From Atopobiaceae bacterium (GTDB taxonomy: Bacteria > Actinomycetota > Coriobacteriia > Coriobacteriales > Atopobiaceae), in contig JAGCBF010000031.1 in the NCBI GenBank assembly GCA_017652285.1, positions 1 through 38,960 of the forward strand: 38,960 nucleotides of DNA, given 5' to 3'. Made by a program: the position numbers and the translations under genes. How positions within the stretch are numbered: the stretch's first letter is position 1; every line of letters begins with the position of its first letter. This document shows, in pieces, positions 12,887 through 25,955 of this stretch. The notes beneath the pieces were generated by a model. That model did not search any database, was not told the DNA's origin, and saw only the letters and a list, made by a program, of their open reading frames with translations.

Positions 12887-14587
12887 CTAGAAGATGCGCT
12901 TGACCGGCTGGACGCGCGCCATGGCCGTGGTGTCGACGAACCTCTTGTAGAGGCTCATGGCATCGGGGACGTCATCATGCTCGCGCTTGTGATTTGCCTT
13001 GACCGCGTAGGTGGTGAGGAACTTGAGGAACAGCGAATACTCGCGCTCCGAGGTCGCCTTGAACATGCACCGCTGCTTGACCCAACCCGCGTCCGCCTCG
13101 ATGCGCACCTCCTTGTTCTCGGTCGAGTACTTCGTGCGCATGTCGATTGCCAAGCCTTTGAGGCGGCATGCGTTCTCGACCTCCTTCGCGATTGTCCCTC
13201 CCGCCACGTTGCTCTCGAACCGGCATATCTGCACCCTGTTGCGCACGAGCGCGTCCACAATCCTCGGGACTATGTTCTCCATGAGGCTGTCGGAGCAGAT
13301 GACCTCCTCGATGTAGTGGTAGAGGCCGTAGGCATATCCTATGACGAGCACGCAGTAGTCCGCGCCCTTCGTCTTGGTGTCGCATACCGCCAATACCGCG
13401 TCAGGCTCGCCCTCGGGGAGCTCCTCGTAGAAGTTCAGCTCATCCATCGTGTAGAGTACGCCCTCCCGCCAATACGGGGAGCACATGTACTTTGCCGACC
13501 ATGCGTCCTCGTTCCCGGCTATGAGGAGCGATTGGTACATGTCCTCGTAGTATTCGGTCGAGAACCCGAGGTCGTATTGGTACTCGAAGTTCGACCTGCC
13601 CAGCGGGTGCCTTATCACCCTCCCGTCCCGCTCCTCCTCCCAGGGAACGCCGTCGAGCGCGGGAAGGGAGGTGAAGCGATAGCGGGGATTTCCCCTGTAC
13701 TGCTCCTCTATGCGCCCAATCGGGTCGTTGGGAACCCACCTTGTTCCGATGAAGAGCTGCTTGGCACCGTCGAGCATGCGGTCTTTCAGCTGATTGAGGT
13801 AGGCGGAGTAGAGGTTGTCCATGCGGTCGCGGTTCATCGCCTCCTCGTAGTCCTCCACGAGGTCGTCGCAGTAGAGCAGGGCATCGCGCCCGACCTCCAC
13901 GGCACCCGTGAGCGTGCCCTCCACCGACCGGCAGGTGAGCGTGGGGAAACGCCGGACGTTCTTCAGGTGTATCGTCTCGTTCGCCATGTCCTTCTTCTTG
14001 AAGCGGGCATCCGGGAACACCCTCTGGAAACGGTACGTCTCCGAGTCCGTGATAATCGAGAGAACCTCCATGTGGAACGAGGAGGTCAGCTTGTCGGAGA
14101 ACCCGGACATGACGTTGGCGCGCTCGGGGTGGCTCCCCATGACGAATGAGACGAAAAAGCACCCCAATGTGGACTTCCCCACTCTCGGAGGGGTGGAATA
14201 CGATAGGAAGTCCAGCTTGTCGTCGAACAAGTCCTGCAAGTCCTGGACAATCGGGTAGAGCACGTGCCTCCTGGGTTGGTAGAACCTCTTGTCAGGCTCC
14301 CTCCCCCACTCCATGAACAGCATGTAGGCGTCGAAGTCGTCGCGGCAGTCGATCTCGAGCATCTGCTCGACCATCGCGAGGAGGTGGTAGGCGACGTCCG
14401 TGTCCGTCATGGCGGCCTGCACCACCTTCTTGGAGGCGAAGTCCCTCATGTAGCGGTTGTAGGCGCGCTCGATGACCGGCTCCTCCTCCTTGAAGGACGT
14501 GAGGAGGGATACGGCATCGGTTATCTGCTCGGCGCAGAGCGTGTCATCCAACGTTGATATGAGGGCATCGAGGAACTGCTGGTACAT
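12887..14587 (-). CDS. terL: Terminase large subunit
   Basis: A 566-aa packaging motor and nuclease. The ATPase has a Walker A-like TPPRVGKST at about 132-140 and a Walker B ALLYCDD at 236-242. The RNase H-like nuclease shows D403 in VLAVCDTKTKGAD, a middle region FESNVAGG at 458-464, and HDDVPDA at 537-543 near the end. It starts at an AAGGAGGAGG site. Unusually, its partner, the probable small terminase, is 5 kb away at 19752-20357. A plus-strand island and a bidirectional terminator lie between them, so TerL probably needs its own promoter or antitermination. Confidence 0.95.
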   Translation of the reverse strand: MYQQFLDALISTLDDTLCAEQITDAVSLLTSFKEEEPVIERAYNRYMRDFASKKVVQAAMTDTDVAYHLLAMVEQMLEIDCRDDFDAYMLFMEWGREPDKRFYQPRRHVLYPIVQDLQDLFDDKLDFLSYSTPPRVGKSTLGCFFVSFVMGSHPERANVMSGFSDKLTSSFHMEVLSIITDSETYRFQRVFPDARFKKKDMANETIHLKNVRRFPTLTCRSVEGTLTGAVEVGRDALLYCDDLVEDYEEAMNRDRMDNLYSAYLNQLKDRMLDGAKQLFIGTRWVPNDPIGRIEEQYRGNPRYRFTSLPALDGVPWEEERDGRVIRHPLGRSNFEYQYDLGFSTEYYEDMYQSLLIAGNEDAWSAKYMCSPYWREGVLYTMDELNFYEELPEGEPDAVLAVCDTKTKGADYCVLVIGYAYGLYHYIEEVICSDSLMENIVPRIVDALVRNRVQICRFESNVAGGTIAKEVENACRLKGLAIDMRTKYSTENKEVRIEADAGWVKQRCMFKATSEREYSLFLKFLTTYAVKANHKREHDDVPDAMSLYKRFVDTTAMARVQPVKRIF

Positions 14588-14624
14588 GGCCTCCTCCTTT
14601 CGGCGTACAGGTTATCCGCTAAGA

Positions 14625-14644
14625 AACCCTCCGCATGGGGGGTT
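14625..14644. terminator. Hairpin upstream of TerL
   Basis: Plus strand AACCCTCC-GCAT-GGGGGGTT forms an 8-bp stem (one G:T pair) with a 4-base loop. On the plus strand it is followed by ATTTCGG; on the minus strand by TCTTAG. It resembles a weak rho-independent terminator or attenuator in the TerL leader. The T tracts are short, so activity is uncertain. Confidence 0.4.
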
Positions 14645-14659
14645 ATTTCGGTTCGTTTC

Positions 14660-14749
14660 GGCATTTTATGCAGTTTCGGGAGTATTACCGCCTGATTTCT
14701 GGCATTTTTATGCAGAGTTACCGCCTGATTTCTGGCATTTTATGCAGAG
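14660..14749. repeat. Tandem 32-33 bp repeats upstream of TerL
   Basis: Two adjacent near-identical units, 14685-14717 (33 bp) and 14718-14749 (32 bp), differ by a single T in a T run. Each begins TTACCGCCTGATTTC and ends with GCATTTTATGCAG, itself a short palindrome (GCAT-TTT-ATGC). A third, partial copy of the last part is at 14660-14673. Their position beside the TerL gene suggests a terminase recognition (pac/cos) site or an iteron-type origin. Neither can be shown from sequence alone. Confidence 0.75.
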
Positions 14750-15041
14750 GGCGCTTTTGCAGATTTCGGCTATTCGAGGGGGTAAGACGGCATTTTTTCA
14801 CTCCGGCAGCGCGGGGTGGGGGTGCCTCGGAGGGGTTCGGCGGCATGCTCTCGCGCGGTTTTTGGGGTGTGGGGTGCCCTTTTTGGGGTTCAGGCGCACT
14901 ATATATTGTGCGTTCAAATAGGGTATAGCCTAACGATAGGCGCGGATAGTCCGCCGAGGTGGCGCGGCAGTTTCCAGCACGGCGCGCGCGGTTTTGGTAG
15001 GCTCGAATAGTCGCGGGGGTGAGTCTCTTCCCATGTTCGGC

Positions 15042-15370
15042 GGGTTCGGCGTGCTCGATGCTCTGCCCTTCGGCGGCGAACACGGGCAGACACTACCACG
15101 GCGCGCGGGTGCCCTCTGTGGCGCGTTCTCGTGCCCTGCAAGGCTCGATCTCGTGCGGTGGCGTGTGTCTGCCCTCCCTCCCTCCCTCCGAGGCTCTCGG
15201 AGGCTCTCACGGGTTCGGCGCGTGCTCTGCCCAACCGGGCAGCGCGTGGCGGTTCATCGCACCAGGGCGCGCGCGTGGCGCTCTCTCGTGCCCTGTAGAG
15301 CTCTATCTCTGCGGGTTCGGGTTCTCGGTGCTTTCCCTTATCTGTAAGGCTGTAGGCGGGTTTCTTTGGC
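15042..15370. repeat. Diverged ~160-bp duplication, non-coding
   Basis: Two related stretches follow one another. Landmarks repeat in order: GGGTTCGGCG at 15042 and 15211, then GCTCTGCCC with a later CGGGCAG, and TCTCGTGCCCTG at 15127 and 15284, followed by similar GCTC-ATCTC-TGCGG sequence. The offset changes from about 169 to 157 bp, so units have drifted by indels. Both contain self-complementary pieces (CTGCCC/GGGCAG). This fits two copies of a structured element or an eroded tandem duplication. Confidence 0.55.
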
Positions 15371-15387
15371 TTTCTTCAATTTCCCTC

Positions 15388-15416
15388 TTGCGCGCTGTAG
15401 CACTCCCTGCTATAGT
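15388..15416 (+). promoter_or_regulatory. Promoter P1 of island with overlapping inverted repeat
   Basis: TTGCGC (15388-15393), a 17-base spacer and TATAGT (15411-15416) form a good sigma70-type promoter. The spacer and -10 contain the inverted repeat TAGCA-CTCCC-TGCTA, a probable operator. The same promoter-plus-repeat design occurs before the gene at 16593. It would transcribe the gene at 15477. Confidence 0.7.
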
Positions 15417-15476
15417 GTCCTCAAGCCGCAAGGGGCGGCGAGTCTAGAGCCTGGCAAGGCGGGAAGAAGGGACACA

Positions 15477-15782
15477 ATGCAGAACCTATTTAACATCGAA
15501 ACGCGCGAGGATATGAAACGGCTTGAAGAGCACGCGTACGCGGCACTCGGTTGCGGGTGGCATCTCGAGGACACCGGCGGCGGCGTTTTCGCCATTGTCT
15601 ACGACAGGAACGACGGCGGGCGCATCGAGCTTTACGAAACGGGTTATATCCTGCGGGATGCCGATTTCGAAACGTTTTTCGAGGCTTACGGGCTCGACGA
15701 GGAAGGCATCGACGCCAACACGGCCGAAGGGTTGCGGAGGCTTGCGAGGGGCGCATTTTTTGACTATGGCACCATGCAGTAA
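15477..15782 (+). CDS. Small island protein, unrecognised (101 aa)
   Basis: A 101-aa acidic protein. I chose ATG 15477 because GAAGAAGGGA lies in front and the promoter ends 60 bases upstream; the frame is open further upstream but without a ribosome site. The sequence has a short helix (TREDMKRLEEHAYAAL), strands (GGGVFAIVYDRNDGGRIELY) and an acidic helical end (FETFFEAYGLDEEGID). I do not recognise a family. It has its own promoter and a strong terminator right behind it, so it is a one-gene cassette (moron-like). Confidence 0.75.
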   Translation: MQNLFNIETREDMKRLEEHAYAALGCGWHLEDTGGGVFAIVYDRNDGGRIELYETGYILRDADFETFFEAYGLDEEGIDANTAEGLRRLARGAFFDYGTMQ

Positions 15783-15800
15783 GGCGGGGCGCTAGAGTTT

Positions 15801-15835
15801 CGAGGGGGGCGGCTATGCCGCCTCCCTCGCTTTTT
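15801..15835 (+). terminator. Rho-independent terminator
   Basis: A 13-bp GC-rich stem with the triloop TAT (GGCGGC-TAT-GCCGCC core, one G:T pair) is followed by CTTTTTG. It ends transcription of the gene at 15477 and faces the terminator of the opposing gene at 15914. Confidence 0.88.
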
Positions 15836-15854
15836 GCCATAGTCCGGACATAGT

Positions 15855-15889
15855 CGAAAAGAGAAGGCCCGCTGAATATGGCGGGCCTT
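15855..15889 (-). terminator. Rho-independent terminator of convergent gene
   Basis: The 9-bp stem AAGGCCCGC / GCGGGCCTT (15864-15872 and 15881-15889) has an 8-base loop. On the minus strand it is followed by CTCTTTTCG. It ends the minus-strand gene at 15914-16357. ATAGTCC (15839) and ATAGTCG (15850), 11 bp apart, lie between the two facing terminators. Confidence 0.8.
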
Positions 15890-15913
15890 GCGTTTGGCGT
15901 GTCCTGGTGCGCT

Positions 15914-16357
15914 CTACTCGGCGCGCCACGTCTCGCCAGTCTCGGTGTTCAGGGCGAACACTTCCACCACGGCGGGCGAGTTTATCCGCGTTGCGAGGTT
16001 GCGCACGTTCTCGGCGATTACGCGCGCACACAATCCGCTGCTCGTGGTTTTGAAGTCGCTCCCGTCAATAGTCACATGGTAGACAAGCACGCCGAGAAGC
16101 TCGGCGGCGTACTCGCACAGTCGCGCGGGGTTGCCCCAAAACGGGAACTCCTGCGCGGTTCCGTCGTTCTCGAACACCTGCACGAAGTGCGGGCCGCTCG
16201 GCGTGAAGCCGACAAGCGCGAATTTCTCGCCGTTCTCGGTGTCGAGGCTGTACACGGGGTAGCGCTCGCCGTTCTCGTTCTCGTATGCGTCGAAGGGTTC
16301 CATACCGTAGCGCGCGGCGATCTCGGCGGCGGTGGGGTTGATTTCTGATACTAGCAT
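15914..16357 (-). CDS. Island protein, unrecognised (147 aa), opposite strand
   Basis: A 147-aa acidic protein, the only minus-strand gene in the island. ATG 16357 follows GAAAGAGAG. The sequence alternates strands and helices (ENENGERYPVYSLDTENGEK, FALVGFTPSGPHFVQVFEND, LCEYAAELLGVLVYHVTID) and ends in VFALNTETGETW. I do not recognise a family. It has its own terminator (15855-15889) and probable promoter in the divergent region near 16412-16463. Confidence 0.7.
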   Translation of the reverse strand: MLVSEINPTAAEIAARYGMEPFDAYENENGERYPVYSLDTENGEKFALVGFTPSGPHFVQVFENDGTAQEFPFWGNPARLCEYAAELLGVLVYHVTIDGSDFKTTSSGLCARVIAENVRNLATRINSPAVVEVFALNTETGETWRAE

Positions 16358-16411
16358 CTTTATCTCTCTTTCTGCCCGGCCTGGGCGGTAGTCTCGGCGG
16401 CTTTTCCGCCT

Positions 16412-16463
16412 CGCGGATAGTCTATCAGACTGCACTATATAATGCAAGCGGCAGCGCGGCGAA
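16412..16463 (-). promoter_or_regulatory. Divergent control region with TGCA palindrome
   Basis: TGCA-CTATATAA-TGCA (16431-16446) shares GCACTATATA with the palindrome-like site at 14895-14912. ATAGTCT lies at 16417. On the minus strand, TTGCAT-17-TAGACT or TTCGCC-18-TATAGT could be the promoter of the gene at 15914-16357. Which one is used cannot be told from sequence. Confidence 0.4.
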
Positions 16464-16501
16464 TAGCTCGCAAATTATGCGCACAATCTCGCAAAGATCA
16501 C

Positions 16502-16530
16502 TTGCGCGCTATAGTAGCACCTGCTATACT
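16502..16530 (+). promoter_or_regulatory. Promoter P2 of island with overlapping inverted repeat
   Basis: TTGCGC (16502-16507), 17 bases, TATACT (16525-16530). The spacer and -10 again contain an inverted repeat, TAGCA-CC-TGCTA. This is the same layout as P1 at 15388, so both are probably controlled by one repressor. It drives the gene at 16593 and perhaps the following operon. Confidence 0.72.
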
Positions 16531-16592
16531 TTCCCCGGCGGGCAAAATGGCCCGAGTCAAGCGCCCAGGCAGGGCAGAAGGGATATAGAGCA

Positions 16593-17024
16593 ATGCTAGA
16601 CGTACAGCAGACTATCAAAAACATCGGCAGGAACGCCGACAAGCGCACCTACTACAGGCGCGCGATCATGCACGACGCGCTCGAGATGATCGACAATCTC
16701 GACGCGCGCGACGTGCTCGAGCTCGACAACTTCGACGCGCTCGAGACTCGACTGCTTAACGGGGCAGACTCCACAATCAAGCTCTTTTGCGGTTCGCTCG
16801 ACGGGCACCGGCTCGAGGCGTGGCGCGTCTATTCGTGGGGCGGTTGCGCGCTCGTGTACAATGAAGATATTGCGCGCCACTACTTGACGCCTAGCGAATT
16901 CCGCAAGTACGAAAAGCGGCGCGACTCTAGCACGGCTCCGGGCGGCGTCGAGTTGCTCGAAGTGCAGGCGCGCGCTCTGCTCTCGGCGTGCAGACTGATA
17001 AAGAAAAGCGCGGTTTTCTGCTAG
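16593..17024 (+). CDS. Island protein, mobile-element-type hypothetical (143 aa)
   Basis: A 143-aa protein with ATG 16593 behind GCAGAAGGGAT. The central part (LEAWRVYSWGGCALVYNEDI followed by ARHYLTPSEF) and the late VELLEVQARALLSACRLI resemble a small hypothetical protein I recall from plasmids and conjugative elements of gut bacteria ('YSYGGCALIYDEDIAERLCTPSE'... 'LDVQARAL..A'). I know no function for it. Its presence suggests the island was assembled from plasmid-like material. The first 60 residues are helical and charged. Confidence 0.72.
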   Translation: MLDVQQTIKNIGRNADKRTYYRRAIMHDALEMIDNLDARDVLELDNFDALETRLLNGADSTIKLFCGSLDGHRLEAWRVYSWGGCALVYNEDIARHYLTPSEFRKYEKRRDSSTAPGGVELLEVQARALLSACRLIKKSAVFC

Positions 17025-17036
17025 TTTCTCGCAACC

Positions 17037-17060
17037 TAGGGCAATCCCGCGATTGCCCTA
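17037..17060 (+). terminator. Hairpin after gene 16593
   Basis: Perfect 10-bp stem TAGGGCAATC-CCGC-GATTGCCCTA. There is no T tract afterwards, so it is either a weak terminator or a 3'-end RNA-stabilising structure. ACAGTCG, a variant of the island motif, follows at 17081. Confidence 0.5.
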
Positions 17061-17114
17061 TCTGCGGCAAACTTGCCGAGACAGTCGAAAGCCAATAGGC
17101 GGAAGGGGTTCAAC

Positions 17115-17342
17115 ATGTGGAAGCGGGAAAAGAAGGAACTCACGGCGGAACAGGTGGCGCGCGGCGTGTACTTCTCGTCGGCCCTGGTGCGTGACGGCGA
17201 AACGGAGGCCGAGACGGTGCACGAGGTGTTCGCGAGTGATCCCAACCGAAAAGAGAAGATCGCGCGGCTGCAGGATGTGAGGTTCTTCCGCAACCTGGCG
17301 GCCGATGCCGGGTACAACGTGCGCGAGATTGTGAGGTTCTAG
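17115..17342 (+). CDS. Small island protein, unrecognised (75 aa)
   Basis: A 75-aa charged protein. ATG 17115 follows GGAAGGGG at a good distance. The sequence begins MWKREKKELTAEQVARGVYF and ends FFRNLAADAGYNVREIVRF; overall mixed charge and probably helical. I do not recognise a family. It stops 6 bases before a large hairpin and the 9-bp repeat array. Confidence 0.65.
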   Translation: MWKREKKELTAEQVARGVYFSSALVRDGETEAETVHEVFASDPNRKEKIARLQDVRFFRNLAADAGYNVREIVRF

Positions 17343-17347
17343 CACAT

Positions 17348-17384
17348 CGCCACGCCGGGGCACCTGCTCGGTGCCTCGGTGGCG
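17348..17384 (+). other. Intergenic hairpin before 9-bp array
   Basis: A stem with core GGCACC-TGCTC-GGTGCC (17359-17375), extended by CGCCA/TGGCG arms with a bulge. No T tract follows. It is immediately upstream of the five 9-bp repeats. Confidence 0.5.
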
Positions 17385-17397
17385 GTGTGCTGCCGTA

Positions 17398-17440
17398 ATA
17401 GTCGCAATAGTTGCAATAGTCGCAACAGTCGCAACAGTCG
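17398..17440 (+). repeat. Five tandem 9-bp repeats (A-T/C-AGTCGCA)
   Basis: Units start at 17398, 17407, 17416, 17425 and 17434: ATAGTCGCA, ATAGTTGCA, ATAGTCGCA, ACAGTCGCA, ACAGTCGGA. The spacing is exactly 9 bp. They lie between a hairpin and the ribosome site of the gene at 17464 and belong to the island-wide ATAGTCG family. Confidence 0.9.
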
Positions 17441-17463
17441 GAAACGATGGAACGGAGGAAGAG

Positions 17464-17889
17464 ATGACGAAAGAAAAGTATGCAGTTATCGAGCGCGAGG
17501 TGTTCGCAGCAACCGAGGGAGGCCGCCGGACGTATTCATGGGGATTGCCCTGCGGAGGCGAGGGGAACGAACTCTATTACGGGGATAGCGAGGAACATGC
17601 CCTTAGCGCCTATCACAAGGCGTGGATTGATATGCTCAAGGGCGAGGGATACAAGCTCGTCAAGGCCGCGCGTGGTCTTGATACCGTGGAGTATATGTCC
17701 TTGGAACTTGTCCGGTACACATTCGATGAGGATGATGAGGACGGGTGTCCGCTGGATGTTTTCACTGTTAGCCGCGAGAACAGCCTACCGTGGTTTGTGG
17801 AAAAGGCCATGCGCCAAGCGGAAGGTGAGTATATAGCCTGGTGCCGCTATGAGGCCGGTACCTGGCGCAACGTGCGCGACCTTATCTGA
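17464..17889 (+). CDS. Island protein, unrecognised (141 aa)
   Basis: A 141-aa acidic protein. ATG 17464 is preceded by GGAGGAAGAG. Features: strands at the start (YAVIEREVFAATEGGRRTYS), a helical segment (SAYHKAWIDMLKGEGYKLVK), an acidic DEDDEDGCPLDVF turn, and a C-terminal helix (WFVEKAMRQAEGEYIAWCRY). I do not recognise a family. It sits between two ATAGTCG repeat regions. Confidence 0.68.
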   Translation: MTKEKYAVIEREVFAATEGGRRTYSWGLPCGGEGNELYYGDSEEHALSAYHKAWIDMLKGEGYKLVKAARGLDTVEYMSLELVRYTFDEDDEDGCPLDVFTVSRENSLPWFVEKAMRQAEGEYIAWCRYEAGTWRNVRDLI

Positions 17890-17895
17890 TCCCCT

Positions 17896-17926
17896 ACAGT
17901 CGAAGTGCTGCGATAGTCGATAGTTG
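17896..17926 (+). repeat. ATAGTCG motif cluster
   Basis: ACAGTCG at 17896, ATAGTCG at 17913 and ATAGTTG at 17920 lie between the stop at 17889 and the ribosome site of the gene at 17940. This cluster is irregularly spaced (17 and 7 bp). Confidence 0.75.
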
Positions 17927-17939
17927 AATGGAGGTTACG

Positions 17940-18245
17940 ATGGAAAACTACAAACGAGCTCTTTTCATGTCCGCCTACGATATTATGCTGAGCACGCGCC
18001 GAACCCGCAACCCGCTTATGATCGAGGACGTGGTGGACGCTGTGCGGTTCGTCTCCACGGCGCTGGTGGGGATGCTGAACGGCGAGCGCCTGTTCCCGGA
18101 TGTTACGCTCGACCTGGCGGACACGCTGGAGTGGATCAATGATGACAAGATCGGCGAGATCGAGGACGCTGTGCACATCATCCGGTGCGCGAATGAAGAA
18201 CTCGCATCCCGCCAAGTCGGTACGCCGAACATCTGGCGGCAGTAG
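17940..18245 (+). CDS. Island protein, unrecognised (101 aa)
   Basis: A 101-aa largely helical protein. An upstream in-frame ATG (17928) lies inside the ribosome site TGGAGG, so ATG 17940 is the start. Sequence: SAYDIMLSTRRTRNPLMIED, then VVDAVRFVSTALVGMLNGER, DLADTLEWINDDKIGEIEDA. No family recognised. A 12-bp inverted repeat follows. Confidence 0.65.
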   Translation: MENYKRALFMSAYDIMLSTRRTRNPLMIEDVVDAVRFVSTALVGMLNGERLFPDVTLDLADTLEWINDDKIGEIEDAVHIIRCANEELASRQVGTPNIWRQ

Positions 18246-18256
18246 CTCTCGATAGA

Positions 18257-18285
18257 GATAGCACATTCCCCTAGAATGTGCTATC
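18257..18285 (+). other. Perfect 12-bp inverted repeat
   Basis: GATAGCACATTC-CCCTA-GAATGTGCTATC, a perfect 12-bp stem with a 5-base loop. No T run follows, so it may be a terminator-like hairpin or a dyad operator. It lies just before the ATAGTCG pair at 18294/18305. Confidence 0.7.
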
Positions 18286-18293
18286 ATCTGTCG

Positions 18294-18311
18294 ATAGTCG
18301 CGAAATAGTCG
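18294..18311 (+). repeat. ATAGTCG pair, 11-bp spacing
   Basis: Exact ATAGTCG at 18294 and 18305, one helical turn apart, just upstream of the GGAGG site for the gene at 18326. Confidence 0.88.
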
Positions 18312-18325
18312 GAATGGAGGAACAA

Positions 18326-18541
18326 ATGACGCAGACGGAGGCACAGAAGCGGGCGGTGAAGAAGTGGCGCAAGGGCAATATGCGCTCAATCACGCTGCAC
18401 TTCTACGTCGGCGGCGATGCCGATATTATCGCGTTCCTTGATGCGACGGAGAACAAGTCCCGGGCCGTGAAAGACGCTATCCGCGCCTATATCGCGCATC
18501 AGGGGCAAGACACCGAGGCAAGGGAAAACGGGGCGCTGTAG
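18326..18541 (+). CDS. Ribbon-helix-helix (Arc/CopG-like) DNA-binding protein
   Basis: A 71-aa basic protein with ATG 18326 behind GGAGGAACAA. The segment RSITLHFYVGGDADIIAFLD followed by NKSRAVKDAIRAYI is strand-helix-turn-helix as in ribbon-helix-helix proteins, and the N-terminal AQKRAVKKWRKGN is common in plasmid-borne members. Such dimers are repressors of plasmid copy control, toxin-antitoxin or conjugation genes. It sits directly behind an 11-bp-spaced motif pair, which may be its operator. No toxin partner is evident next to it. Confidence 0.65.
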   Translation: MTQTEAQKRAVKKWRKGNMRSITLHFYVGGDADIIAFLDATENKSRAVKDAIRAYIAHQGQDTEARENGAL

Positions 18542-18591
18542 GGCATTACAGAGCCTCACACGACGGCCCGCGAGGGCAGAAGGGATCGACC

Positions 18592-19179
18592 ATGAGATAC
18601 GGATACGTGCGAGTGAGCTCCGCCGAGCAGAACGAGGGCCGGCAGCTTGAGAAGATGGACGCGCTCGGCATCAGCCGCGAGTGCGTTTTCGTGGATAAGG
18701 CGAGCGGAAAGAGCCTCGACCGGCCCGCATGGAACGCGCTCCGCCGGGTGGTGCGCCGTGGCGACGTCATCGTGATCGACAGCCTCGACCGCCTCGGGCG
18801 CAACTACGACGAGGTGACTGCCGAGTGGCGCAAGCTCACCCGGGAGCAGGGCGTGGACGTGGTGGCGCTCGACCTCGAGTTTATGAACTCCGAAAACTTC
18901 CGCAACATGGGGGAAGTCGGAAAGCTGCTCGAGGATATGGTGCTCAATCTGCTTGCCTGGGTTGCGCAGACGGAACGCGAGAAGATCAGGCAGCGCCAAG
19001 CGGAGGGCATCGCCCTCGCGAAAGCGGAGGGCAAGTACACCGGCCGCAAGGCGCGCGAGCTCGGTGCCGAGGAGATCGAGGCGATCCGAGGCATGAAGGA
19101 TGCCGAGGCCATGCAGGCGCTCGGGGTGTCGCAGGCAACCTACTACCGCTGGAAACGGGAAGGGAAGCTCGCGGGATAG
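18592..19179 (+). CDS. Serine recombinase (resolvase/invertase family)
   Basis: A 195-aa small serine recombinase. The N-terminal domain has YVRVSSAEQN with catalytic Ser (S9), the DRLGR pair R67/R70 in IDSLDRLGRN, and the E-helix region (NLLAWVAQTEREKIRQRQAE). The C-terminal part from about 150 is a helix-turn-helix (QALGVSQATYYRWKREG). Length is normal for Tn3 resolvases and invertases. ATG 18592 follows AGAAGGG. The stop TAG is embedded in an ATAGTCG motif. The phage already has a tyrosine integrase, so this enzyme probably resolves multimers, inverts a segment or is a relic of how the island moved. No matching crossover site was identified. Confidence 0.92.
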   Translation: MRYGYVRVSSAEQNEGRQLEKMDALGISRECVFVDKASGKSLDRPAWNALRRVVRRGDVIVIDSLDRLGRNYDEVTAEWRKLTREQGVDVVALDLEFMNSENFRNMGEVGKLLEDMVLNLLAWVAQTEREKIRQRQAEGIALAKAEGKYTGRKARELGAEEIEAIRGMKDAEAMQALGVSQATYYRWKREGKLAG

Positions 19180-19228
19180 TCGGGTGATAGTCGCGGCGGA
19201 TAGTCGCGTCATAGTCGAATGATAGTCG
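19176..19228 (+). repeat. Five ATAGTCG copies at 11-13 bp spacing
   Basis: Exact copies start at 19176, 19187, 19200, 19211 and 19222 (spacing 11, 13, 11, 11), filling the gap between the recombinase gene and the regulator gene at 19248. All face the same side of the DNA helix. This is the densest array in the window. Confidence 0.93.
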
Positions 19229-19247
19229 CAAGACGGAAGGGAAGAAG

Positions 19248-19682
19248 ATGGACGAACAGCAGATGATGCAAGACCGGAAGGAGAGGGCGGAGCTGCGCGC
19301 GGTGCGCACCCTGGTCGGCCTCACACAGCAGGACTTGGCGGCGAAGTTCGGAGTGGCAATCGGCGATGTGTCGAATTGGGAGAACGCCAAGAAGCGTCAC
19401 TTCCCCGTTCCCGCCGACGTGCTCGACTACGTGCGCCGGGTCAAGCGGTTCCATGACGACGAGGTGGCGCGGCGCGCCGACAAGATACTCGACAGCGGCG
19501 CGAGCGAGGTCACGCTCACCTATTGGCGCTCGCAGCCGATCTACGAGAGGAGCGGCATGCCCGGCTACTTCTCCGTTGAGAACGGTATCAGCATCGCGGT
19601 GGCGTCGATAGTCGAATACGAGGGAGTGAGGGTGGAGTGGGAGTACCCGCCCGTGCCCGTGAACCCCGAACAGCAGGGATAG
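19248..19682 (+). CDS. HTH transcriptional regulator, YdiL/Aca2-like layout
   Basis: A 144-aa regulator. Residues about 15-50 form an XRE-type helix-turn-helix (VRTLVGLTQQDLAAKFGVAI, then DVSNWENAKK). This is followed by PVPADVLDYVRRVKRFHDDE and a mixed C-terminal domain with TLTYWRSQPIYERSGMPGYF. The 'HTH, then vP-d-v...' layout recalls the YdiL/DUF1870 group, to which Aca2, the repressor of anti-CRISPR operons, belongs. It is the last gene of the island and lies between ATAGTCG arrays, so it is the leading candidate to bind them. ATG 19248 follows GGAAGGGAAGAAG. Relation to Aca2 is a hypothesis. Confidence 0.7.
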   Translation: MDEQQMMQDRKERAELRAVRTLVGLTQQDLAAKFGVAIGDVSNWENAKKRHFPVPADVLDYVRRVKRFHDDEVARRADKILDSGASEVTLTYWRSQPIYERSGMPGYFSVENGISIAVASIVEYEGVRVEWEYPPVPVNPEQQG

Positions 19683-19749
19683 TCGCGCCATAGTCGCAAA
19701 AGAAAAACCCCTCCGAGCGGAGGGGTTTCTCATAGTCGCGTGATAGTCG
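19679..19749. repeat. Two ATAGTCG pairs flanking the terminator
   Basis: Pairs start at 19679/19690 and 19732/19743, both 11 bp apart, one on each side of the terminator at 19705-19728. The distance between inner copies is 42 bp, four helical turns. The first copy contains the stop codon of the HTH gene. Confidence 0.9.
19705..19728. terminator. Bidirectional rho-independent terminator
   Basis: Perfect 10-bp stem AAACCCCTCC-GAGC-GGAGGGGTTT with an A-rich 5' side (AAAAGAAA) and a T-rich 3' side. It can stop both the plus-strand island operon and minus-strand transcripts from the small terminase gene. It therefore separates the two terminase genes transcriptionally. Confidence 0.9.
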
Positions 19750-19751
19750 TG

Positions 19752-20357
19752 TCAGCTTTTCTCCGGCAGTTTCTTTTGAGCGTCCTCTACGGACACGATT
19801 TCGACTCCGACGAGTTCCGCGTACTTCCTCGCCGCGTCCTCCCCGCTCGCGAGCTGCGGCGTGGCATCGACGCGCACCACCGTCTCCTCGCGGGTGTCGC
19901 GGTATCCGAAGTGATTTTTGAGCAGAAAAATGTCACCCGCCGGGTTCGTGTTCTTCTCGTTCAGGCTCGCCTCGGCGTATGCCGCCATGATGGAGTACCA
20001 CCAATGGAGCTCCTCGACCACCTCGGGGTAGACGGTCATGCCCTTGCACGTCTTGACGCCACGGAAGATGCTCGAGAGGTCGTCCCGAGAGATGCCGAGC
20101 GCCACGCAGTACCCGTTCACCTGAAACTTGATGCCGTGCTTGGCGCAGAGCTCCATGTACTTGTCGGTGCGCTCCCGCACCGCGTCAATGTCCTCGATTG
20201 TGATTTTCGGGAGCGCCTTGAGCTCGCGGATGAACGCGATTATGCGCCTGTTGGTGTCGGCGTTCGGAACCTCGGGGTTCTGCGCCATGACGACGGGACT
20301 CTTTGCCCGCGCCTTGCTCATATCGTCCCTATATCCTCCGCTACCCTTGCCGCCCAT
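19752..20357 (-). CDS. terS: Probable terminase small subunit
   Basis: A 201-aa protein that starts MGGKGSGGYRDD behind AGGAGGG. It has a helical N-terminal half with a DNA-binding-like part (CVALGISRDDLSSIFRGVKT). The C-terminal part AEASLNEKNTNPAGDIFLLK followed by NHFGYRDT is the signature I know from Gram-positive phage small terminases ('...NPa..iFLLKNhFGYkD'). It would recognise the packaging site and recruit TerL. It ends 9 bases from an ATAGTCG box, then the bidirectional terminator. The distance to TerL is abnormal. Confidence 0.72.
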   Translation of the reverse strand: MGGKGSGGYRDDMSKARAKSPVVMAQNPEVPNADTNRRIIAFIRELKALPKITIEDIDAVRERTDKYMELCAKHGIKFQVNGYCVALGISRDDLSSIFRGVKTCKGMTVYPEVVEELHWWYSIMAAYAEASLNEKNTNPAGDIFLLKNHFGYRDTREETVVRVDATPQLASGEDAARKYAELVGVEIVSVEDAQKKLPEKS

Positions 20358-20778
20358 CTTCCCTCCTAACAAGGTAAACCCGACCGTCCGCCATCGTGAC
20401 GGACACTCCTTTGTACTTTCCGCGCCCCACGAGGCGGTAGAAGGCGTTGTACTCCGCCTTCCCGCCCTCGATGACCGCCTTCTCGTGCCCTGCCGCCAGG
20501 AACTCGTCGAGCGTCGCCCGCGCGAGGCTCGCGCGTGTCGGAACCTCATCCACGGGTTCCAGCGGCATCGACCGCACCGCGAGGCGGATGAGCATGACCT
20601 GCCCGTCCCGCACGCAGCACGTGACCGTCCTCTGCCTGCCTACCCTGCGGATTTCGGCGTTCATCACCTCGGAGGTGTGGCGCGCCGTGAAGGGCGTGGG
20701 AACGATTGCGAACCCATCCCCGCCCATCAGGAACCGCTTGAGCGCGGCGGAGCAGTATTGGCTACACCTGCTCTTCAT
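20341..20778 (-). CDS. Phage protein, unrecognised (145 aa)
   Basis: A 145-aa protein overlapping the small terminase start by 17 bases and the upstream gene by 17 bases. The start MKSRCSQYCSAALKRFLMGG at 20778 is the first ATG inside the upstream gene's end; the longer upstream frame has a shadow-like composition. Later segments RRVGRQRTVTCCVRDGQVML and GKYKGVSVTMADGRVYLVRR are beta-rich. I do not recognise a family. It is probably expressed with the late genes. Confidence 0.65.
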   Translation of the reverse strand: MKSRCSQYCSAALKRFLMGGDGFAIVPTPFTARHTSEVMNAEIRRVGRQRTVTCCVRDGQVMLIRLAVRSMPLEPVDEVPTRASLARATLDEFLAAGHEKAVIEGGKAEYNAFYRLVGRGKYKGVSVTMADGRVYLVRREDGRQG

Positions 20779-24339: not shown

Positions 24340-25758
24340 CTACAATGAACGGCGTACCCCCCCCACGTGGAGCGTGCCGCAGAGGTCATCGTCGACCGAC
24401 GACTTCCCCGCGTCGCTCCCTACGCAGATTGAGCTAGGGATACTCCTTGCAGATGATTTTCCCCTCCGACCAGGACTGTCCTGTGACTCCTCCCGGGCCG
24501 TCCTTTGCGCATAGGGTTCCGACGACCTCCCCGAGGTTTGAAAGCAGCACACGGGCGGGTCTTTGTACATTCTCTGCGTGAGGGCACCTAGAGCACCCCC
24601 CCCCGCGACTATGCAGGTGTTGGGTTGCGTGTCTGTCATGCAGACGATTTCGTTGGCTCGGGACTCCCCCACATCGAAGGTGTTGAGCGTGTTCGCGCAC
24701 TCGCTCGGGACGTAGGTCGTGGCATCTGTCGCGGACATACTCCTGTGCTGCTTGGAGTAGACCTGCTGCGCGACGCAATGCACGTCCACCGTATTCTGCG
24801 TGAAGCACACCTCCTCGTTGACGCCGGAGCCGTTGGGCGCGTCCTTGTCCTTCCTGCCTATCACCTTGCCTTGGATGCAGTAGGTTGGGGACTGCTGGAT
24901 GATTGTCTTTGAGGGCGTTCCCGTCTCGGCGGCTGCGGCGTTGAGGGCAGGTGCGGCATCCTCCCCGTAGGGGTTGAACACTCTCACCGCCTGCCCGTCC
25001 CAAGGGGTCAGACAGCCGTTTTGGAACAATGTCTGATCCTGCGAGGTGCCGATTGTGCCGGACGCTTCAGTCTGCATCAGAGCGCCTGCACCCCCCCCGA
25101 TGTTGGGGGTGCCGGTGTGTCGGAGCTTGAGAGTGTAGCTATGTACTCCTCCAAGGCCTGCTTCAAGATCGGCGGTAATTGCTTGCCGTTTCGCTCTGCC
25201 CGTCTGATAATCCCTTCGCAGGCCTTCTTCGTCAAAAAGTATTTCGGCGGAGGACATGTCTCCAAGACTTCCGACAAGAAACACACGCTCTCGCCGCTGT
25301 GCGACGTCGAAGAATTGCGCGTCCAGAACTCTCCACGCCAAACCGTACCCGAGGTCGGCCATTTCTCCAAGCAGTTGTCGGAAAGCCTGCCCGCGCTCGA
25401 CCGAGAGCGCGCCTGGTACGTTTTCCCAGATGAACCATCGAGGACGGAGCTCTTGTACCGCTCGAATGAACTCGTACATGAGTCCCGACTGCCCTCGCAG
25501 TCCTTCGCGTTTTCCGGCAACGGAGAAAGATTGGCAAGGACTTCCGCCGACCACAACGTCAACTGTTCCATACTCCCGTTTCACTTCCTCCCATTCAATC
25601 TTCGTAATGTCCCCGAGGTTTGGCACGTCCGGGTAGCGCTCCGCAAGAAGCCTGCAGCAATACGGCTCGATCTCGCTGAACGCCACAGGTTCCCAACCTA
25701 GAGGCTCCCATGCGACGGTAGCGGCCTCTATGCCACTGAACAGGGATATGTAGCGCAT
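24340..25758 (-). CDS. DNA C5-cytosine methyltransferase, N-terminal part (motifs I-VIII)
   Basis: A 472-aa piece from ATG 25758. Motif I SLFSGIEAATVAWEP, motif IV GGSPCQSFSVAG with catalytic Cys75, motif VI ENVPG (112-116) and motif VIII QRRERVFLVG (154-163) are all present. A long target-recognition region of about 300 residues with Gly-rich stretches follows. It then ends at an in-frame amber codon before motifs IX-X, which follow in the same frame. Four runs of 8-9 G on the coding strand (three inside this part at 24357, 24596 and 25091, one in the C-terminal piece at 24193) make homopolymer error or phase variation plausible. An enzyme lacking IX-X would probably be inactive. Confidence 0.88.
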   Translation of the reverse strand: MRYISLFSGIEAATVAWEPLGWEPVAFSEIEPYCCRLLAERYPDVPNLGDITKIEWEEVKREYGTVDVVVGGSPCQSFSVAGKREGLRGQSGLMYEFIRAVQELRPRWFIWENVPGALSVERGQAFRQLLGEMADLGYGLAWRVLDAQFFDVAQRRERVFLVGSLGDMSSAEILFDEEGLRRDYQTGRAKRQAITADLEAGLGGVHSYTLKLRHTGTPNIGGGAGALMQTEASGTIGTSQDQTLFQNGCLTPWDGQAVRVFNPYGEDAAPALNAAAAETGTPSKTIIQQSPTYCIQGKVIGRKDKDAPNGSGVNEEVCFTQNTVDVHCVAQQVYSKQHRSMSATDATTYVPSECANTLNTFDVGESRANEIVCMTDTQPNTCIVAGGGALGALTQRMYKDPPVCCFQTSGRSSEPYAQRTAREESQDSPGRRGKSSARSIPSSICVGSDAGKSSVDDDLCGTLHVGGVRRSL

Positions 25759-25760
25759 GA

Positions 25761-25955
25761 TTACCTCCCCGAGAGCTCGGTGAGGGTGAGGTCGAGTGCG
25801 GAGGCTATCTTCTCCCATGTCGCGATTGTGCCCGCGCGCCTTCCGCAGAGAATGGAGTCGATGCACCAACGGGTCACGCCCGCCTTCTCCGCGAGCGCAG
25901 ATGCGGTGAGCCTCCGCTCGCGCATGATTGCCCTAAGCCTATCCTTCCTCTCCAT
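25761..25955 (-). CDS. Small XRE-type HTH protein
   Basis: A 64-aa DNA-binding protein, almost only the helix-turn-helix: RAIMRERRLTASALAEKAGV followed by TRWCIDSILCGRRAGTIATW and LDLTLTELSGR. It overlaps the upstream gene end and is followed after 2 bases by the methyltransferase start. It may regulate the methyltransferase or the replication block. Such small lone HTH proteins are often called Cro-like. Its operator is not known. Confidence 0.78.
   Translation of the reverse strand: MERKDRLRAIMRERRLTASALAEKAGVTRWCIDSILCGRRAGTIATWEKIASALDLTLTELSGR

Follow-up and report, generated by a model that had tools for sequence, protein, structure and literature searches.

What is the role of a dense, one-directional array of heptads lying between the terminase genes of a prophage in an Atopobiaceae bacterium (Actinomycetota; Coriobacteriia; Coriobacteriales), and which protein reads it? 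The array, built of the word ATAGTCG, is found in a stretch of 38,960 nucleotides (GenBank assembly GCA_017652285.1, contig JAGCBF010000031.1, positions 1 to 38,960), which as a whole is called here the window; its array-bearing part, between the genes of the small (TerS) and large (TerL) terminase subunits, is called the island. A first-pass annotation, made from the sequence letters, attributed the array to cooperative binding, phased by one helical turn, of a protein encoded in the island (a helix-turn-helix, or HTH, protein, a ribbon-helix-helix, or RHH, protein, or a recombinase), and named binding to RNA as an alternative. Comparison of the locus with its relatives indicates that the array is most probably a terminase recognition (pac-like) site of the prophage.

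A scan of the window finds 17 exact copies of ATAGTCG between positions 15007 and 19749, all on the plus strand, together with the variants ATAGTCC (14946 and 15839), ATAGTTG (17407 and 17920) and ACAGTCG (16117, 17081, 17425, 17434 and 17896), all in accord with the first-pass annotation. The remainder of the window has only two copies, both on the minus strand (24606 and 32690), which bears out the claim that the rest of the phage is not enriched. The total of 19 compares with a mean of 3.55 in dinucleotide shuffles of the window (standard deviation 2.14, maximum 10), and none of 100 shuffles reaches 19. The full-genome scan proposed earlier as a check gives 293 copies in 3.05 Mb, or about 0.1 per kb (142 for the word read backwards), against 17 copies in 5.2 kb, or about 3.3 per kb, in the island, and this low density rules out a repeat of the host genome. 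A pair of words spaced by 11 bp (ATAGTCGN4ATAGTCG) has six matches in the genome, every one of them in the island, and none in any other of 140 genomes of the family, which likewise excludes a family-wide host element. The observation that nearly all copies are intergenic also stands: 14 of the 17 lie outside genes, two (19176 and 19679) provide the TAG stop codon of a gene, and one (19608) is inside a coding sequence; the intergenic share of the island being 34.5%, the binomial probability of 14 or more is 7e-5, with gene starts chosen by the analyst.

The connection to terminase came from the motif itself. A scan of viral contigs with the 11-spaced pair, which preceded any idea of a terminase, returned 102 loci, mostly with single, chance-like pairs; several had dense one-strand clusters with variable spacers, many of them flanked by sequence that reads as the C-terminal end of a TerS. 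The TerS family is encoded in 27 of the 102 loci, and in 17 of the 22 that have at least four copies per 250 bp. The five dense loci without an adjacent TerS are L093, L080, L071, L013 and L018; the L093 record does encode a TerS of the family, about 7 kb from the array and on the strand predicted by the common rule, according to which the word reads CGACTAT on the TerS strand. The array of L032 is similarly distant from TerS (about 9.5 kb, expected strand), and that of L133 lies just upstream of it. A control scan with the reversed word gave no TerS in at least 120 loci, among the matches listed, and never more than three copies per 250 bp in those listed loci. A later scan, with three tandem units of CGACTTT, found 27 loci, 19 with TerS and 8 without it in the stretch examined; in all 19, the array begins 0-30 bp past the TerS stop codon, on the TerS strand. 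These 19 represent 10 distinct TerS at 90% identity, 9 without a counterpart in the earlier set (the TerS of one locus, L268, is identical to that of L175 in that set, a locus with nine tandem copies of CGACTTT). The CGACTTT pattern was chosen after such arrays had been seen, so the scan tests the link with TerS and not the word.

The same association is seen when loci are selected by TerS. Read on the TerS strand, arrays of CGACTAT and its variants CGACTTT and CGACTCT, confined to one strand, lie at the stop codon of TerS in many divergent phages. After removal of near-copies (from 85 to 59 loci), CGACTAT occurs between positions -150 and +400 of the stop codon in 24 of 59 TerS-selected loci, with at least two copies in 17, and in none of the 59 on the opposite strand within the same range. 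A larger set, reduced from 142 to 106 loci at 90% identity of the last 120 TerS residues, consists of the window, 22 loci from the pattern scan, and the rest from TerS searches. It was divided into class A, with CGACT[ATC] arrays (CGACTT and CGACTC included, over a wider stretch), and class B, with GCAGAA arrays; the data used to define the classes are also those used to count them, and classes A and B comprise 57 and 23 loci, respectively, with 26 loci in neither. The 83 loci that came from TerS searches alone, a set that omits contigs represented by a locus of the pattern scan, include 35 of class A, 23 of class B and 25 of neither. In class A, CGACT[ATC] is found 529 times on the TerS strand vs 14 times on the other. 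In the 23 class-B loci, GCAGAA is found 201 times vs 8 times, though part of this bias may be due to coding, as the GCAGAA array lies mostly inside TerS codons. Background densities elsewhere in the loci are 0.62 and 0.41 per kb for CGACT[ATC] and 0.77 and 0.34 per kb for GCAGAA. Possible further words near the TerS stop codon are GGGACATT in L151, and TTTGAC or TTTGACC, common to L211 and L232. Queries with class-A TerS later led to five phage-collection records. In three of them, CGACT arrays lie at the stop codon, and the opposite strand has none up to 800 bp away; the remaining two lack a CGACT array. All TerS relatives in this collection are from unannotated faecal scaffolds, so that there are no mapped termini for comparison.

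These relatives also change the view of spacing and of the binding protein. In the window, steps of 11 bp are indeed common, alongside steps of 13, 18 and 42 bp, and the regularity is looser than first described: the copies at 19176-19228 are spaced by 11, 13, 11 and 11 bp, and only two of the five units at 17398-17440 are exact. In the 35 TerS-selected class-A loci, the most frequent spacings are 7 bp (57 cases) and 9 bp (30), followed by 8 (10), 11 (9), 13 (7) and 10 bp (2), so spacing by one helical turn is not general in the family; counts that pool pattern-selected loci overstate 11 bp, and a fixed 11-bp phasing was rejected as an artefact of the first search pattern. The idea of a directional array with multiple protein-binding sites remains the best reading, but the binders proposed at first find no support. 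Homologues of the HTH protein (gene 19248) occur in none of 234 other fetched loci, and those of the presumed RHH protein (gene 18326) in two of 234 (phmmer, E 1e-4), against 56 non-redundant loci besides the window in which arrays are present. Judged by this comparison, the regular partner of the array is the flanking TerS gene and not the island proteins.

The gene in question (19752-20357, minus strand, 201 amino acids) looks like a P22-type small terminase and is the candidate reader of the array. Its protein alone matches PF16677 weakly (E 0.0061, 17.1 bits, below the 29.4 cut-off) and has no match to phrog_606. Its relatives are, by profile comparison, plainly terminase small subunits: in the family alignment, 21 of 25 match PF16677 at E of 0.01 or less, the best at 1.8e-15, and 20 of 25 match the terminase small subunit family phrog_606. 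The AlphaFold model of the window protein (pLDDT 80) aligns with the P22 TerS structure (PDB: 3p9a) with Z of 10.4 over 112 residues and root mean square deviation of 3.4, and the next entry has Z of 4.1; this match came from a second look at 173 chains ranked by Foldseek. By the comparison tool's own caution, Z values below about 13 may carry little meaning in the case of helical bundles, and Foldseek by itself returned nothing with E below 2 for this model; the fold match therefore supports the name TerS and does not prove it. An N-terminal arm motif, xGG[NTKYS], occurs in TerS of 25 of 57 class-A loci, none of 23 class-B loci and 4 of 26 others; it was picked after seeing the data, some N-termini are lost at contig ends, and the counts are a lead only.

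The array has two traits of a pac site, namely cis position at or near the terminase genes, and an asymmetric word, which would fix the direction. By analogy with P22 and SPP1, TerS is likely the recognizer (PMC9611059, PMC4737164); headful (pac) packaging would, by analogy with P22, be likelier for this phage than cohesive-end (cos) packaging. In this model, a ring of P22-type TerS subunits would dock on several directional heptads at once, and tethering of the DNA-binding domains in the ring would explain the loose spacing of heptads. Bound TerS would then bring TerL to the concatemer, and TerL, once loaded, would cut near the array. The array would mark the start of packaging as well as its direction, the latter because all heptads point one way.

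In known systems, several elements of this arrangement have parallels. P22 gp3, the PF16677 protein, has the similar fold mentioned above, and P22 pac is also asymmetric and located at the TerS gene (BK000583 annotates pac at 4-25, inside gene 3). P22 pac differs in being one 22-bp site, with no array seen in the 4 kb fetched, and in P22 gene 2 overlaps gene 3, leaving no accessory region between TerS and TerL. P22 pac was examined as possibly the same word and ruled out, being single and of opposite orientation. In SPP1 and SF6, the pac region, again at the TerS gene, contains sets of direct repeats, and TerS is a ring of HTH domains (PMC4737164); the boxA repeats of SPP1 are absent from SF6, whereas here near-identical dense heptads are common to divergent phages. 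In phage 9g, direct repeats precede a mapped terminase cut, but these are two 21-bp repeats with a 12-bp core and not a heptad array (PMC5567051). Direct repeats in pac sites are thus known from SPP1 and 9g, and this kind of site is not new. HK97 TerS also has a sequence-specific site, which is, however, a single 15-bp site of a cos packager whose TerS encircles DNA (PMC11331095). According to the available portions of PMC9611059 and PMC4737164, in vitro binding of TerS to pac in P22, Sf6, SF6 and SPP1 was weak, unsuccessful or independent of sequence, with the exception of one report of nanomolar binding by SPP1 TerS, and the SF6 DNA-binding domain had little preference for pac repeats (PMC4737164).

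Several observations weigh against a terminase site. Of the 106 TerS loci, 26 carry neither word, and these include L242, L244 and L245, three of four relatives found in the same bacterial family. L127 is, among the search hits, the one whose TerS is most identical to that of the window (43% over 100 residues), and the 7.9 kb that follow its TerS contain no array; the sequence upstream is cut off. Conversely, CGACT arrays adjoin highly divergent TerS, with 13-30% identity to that of the window, which is unexpected under a strict recognition code, unless a shared part of the protein reads them. Four of the five dense-array exceptions (L080, L071, L013 and L018) have no TerS in records of 4-17 kb. 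The 4.7-kb extent of the array is seen in none of the 36 other class-A loci. The AGTCG of P22 pac runs opposite to the window word, with no array seen near it in the 4 kb fetched. Finally, among the 37 loci that have all three genes, the numbers of changes in motif class on the trees of TerS, TerL and resolvase are almost equal (11, 10 and 12, respectively), so the tree evidence is of moderate strength and does not discriminate between TerS and TerL.

Trees of larger sets were compared as well. Motif class clusters on the TerS tree of 103 of the 106 loci (fragments under 110 residues excluded), with 21 changes vs a shuffled mean of 41.9. For 41 loci with TerL, there are 12 changes on the TerS tree and 11 on the TerL tree. 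For 58 loci with TerS and resolvase, class requires 11 changes on the TerS tree (shuffled mean 22.0) and hardly follows the resolvase tree, where 19 changes compare with a shuffled mean of 22.2 and a value as low is reached in 10 of 200 shuffles. This bears on the alternative that the heptads are binding sites of the serine resolvase, i.e., accessory sites of a recombination system, and a recombinase, one of the binders proposed at first, persists only as a minor rival. Its strength lies in the gene order of the family. Where at least 3.5 kb of sequence past TerS is available, 57 of 70 loci, the window excluded, have a resolvase gene after TerS (31 of 33 in class A, 9 of 14 in class B and 17 of 23 among the others), and it is located between TerS and TerL in all 41 non-redundant loci with both genes. 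A resolvase homologue is also encoded in the L093 record, with its off-site array, and on the 37 loci just mentioned class fits the resolvase tree nearly as closely as that of TerS. However, 18 loci retrieved with the resolvase as the only query are all without an array (either word occurs at most three times per 300 bp), and no resolvase is seen in the class-A loci L091 and L042, although their sequence is long enough. Known resolvases use inverted half-sites of about 12 bp, for which 7-bp heptad steps leave scant space. On balance, a resolvase site is improbable.

It is quite unlikely, in our view, that the array consists of operators for an island repressor (the product of 19248 or 18326), with leader copies regulating the accessory operon: 10 of the 17 copies do lie 14-65 bp ahead of the next plus-strand gene start, but in the relatives arrays occur without either protein and beside TerS instead. 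A precedent for such a layout is phage TLS, where 18 intergenic 21-base repeats each precede a predicted start codon and follow the direction of transcription; the available portions of that report do not link the repeats to terminase (PMC11447400). Equally doubtful is the proposal of replication-origin iterons, or some other maintenance site merely near terminase. The L093 array adjoins genes that resemble replication genes by eye, but the same record has a family TerS on the matching strand, in other loci the array directly adjoins TerS, and different words occupy different parts of the TerS tree. An RNA element, in the 3' end of TerS mRNA or in accessory-gene leaders, is hardly credible, even though most relatives have the array at the TerS 3' end and in the sense of TerS, given that 15 of the 17 exact copies in the window lie beyond a hairpin (19702-19731) as viewed from TerS, the arrays of L133 and L093 are upstream of TerS and about 7 kb away, respectively, and there is no Rfam match in 14500-20400 (nor any tRNA in the window).

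A wider proposal, which we offer as a tentative one, is that this terminase family reads a directional packaging word, of which there would be at least two (CGACTWT, GCAGAA, perhaps GGGACATT and TTTGACC), swapped in step with the terminase, and that in this prophage the array has also come to serve as a boundary of gene cassettes in the TerS-TerL region, spreading the site over 4.7 kb, where cassettes could be exchanged. Among the literature matches listed, we found no description of a dense array of heptads that is common to divergent phages and whose word varies between branches of one TerS family, and neither ATAGTCG nor CGACTAT as a whole word in phage work, judged by titles and the beginnings of abstracts. 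How TerS recognizes its packaging site is a long-standing question, and here related TerS are accompanied by closely packed directional repeats that are almost identical and come in at least two words, which makes specificity directly testable by in vitro swaps of proteins and words. Such sites would also make packaging sites of uncultured phages readable from sequence, and help to predict which DNA these phages could transduce.

In the window, late genes of the prophage are on the minus strand, in the order tape measure, major head protein, scaffold and portal, followed by TerL (12887-14587; phrog_38, E 1.1e-51), the island and TerS. The island, as the first-pass annotation called it, is not a one-off insertion but the accessory region between TerS and TerL that is usual in this family: the two genes are on the same strand in all 45 non-redundant loci with both, and the distance from TerS to the start of TerL is 2.6-6.1 kb in 43 of the 45, the window included (0.46 and 1.5 kb in the remaining two). 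Among locus pairs with 75-99.5% identical TerS (25 listed of 26), the aligned share of the next 3 kb varies from 0.00 to 1.00; in the pair L180 and L193, the 3 kb after TerS cannot be aligned despite 99% identity of TerS.

The island has nine small genes, and only two of these have Pfam matches above cut-off, the serine resolvase/invertase (18592-19179; PF00239, E 5.9e-29) and the HTH_3 protein (19248-19682; PF01381, E 2e-05). Both are on the plus strand, as the accessory genes here run mostly opposite to TerS; a resolvase is on the TerS strand in 61 of 62 loci, and the inverted resolvase of the window is the sole exception. The plus-strand gene 18326-18541, whose 71-residue product was labeled RHH by the first-pass annotation, has no Pfam match above cut-off and no PHROG match, and the same is true of plus-strand genes 15477, 16593, 17115, 17464 and 17940 (within 15477-18245); for the minus-strand gene at 15914-16357 there is no Pfam match in a search of Pfam only.

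The scatter of the array over 4.7 kb between these accessory genes is unusual and sets the window apart: 12 copies of CGACTAT lie on the TerS strand 500-5000 bp after TerS, as against none in the 36 other class-A loci (144 kb). All blocks are on the plus strand. The block adjoining the TerS stop codon, in the same place as the arrays of relatives, has two ATAGTCG spaced by 11 bp (19732-19749). It is separated by the hairpin at 19702-19731 (inverted repeat I21) from another such pair at 19679-19696, whose first copy contains the stop codon of the HTH gene; the hairpin has T-rich flanks on either strand and might be a two-way terminator, though it is absent from the list of the terminator scan. 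A single copy within the HTH gene (19608-19614) is followed, further toward TerL, by the five-copy block at 19176-19228, the first copy of which provides the stop codon of the resolvase gene, and by an 11-spaced pair in the leader of 18326 (18294-18311). The next blocks combine ACAGTCG, ATAGTCG and ATAGTTG (17896-17926), five 9-spaced units, two of them exact (17398-17440), and ATAGTCC with ATAGTCG at a spacing of 11 bp (15839-15856); a lone ATAGTCG at 15007-15013 is the exact copy closest to TerL. Genes 17464, 17940, 18326 together with 18592, and 19248 are each bracketed by pieces of the array. It may be that a packaging array was interrupted by inserted accessory genes, or that genes and array were amplified together; the layout agrees with both readings.

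Two further features of the prophage were noted. Just upstream of TerL, there are two imperfect 33-bp direct repeats that are 85% alike (14674-14739), and a DNA methyltransferase is encoded at 24340-25869 (phrog_116, E 1.2e-70).

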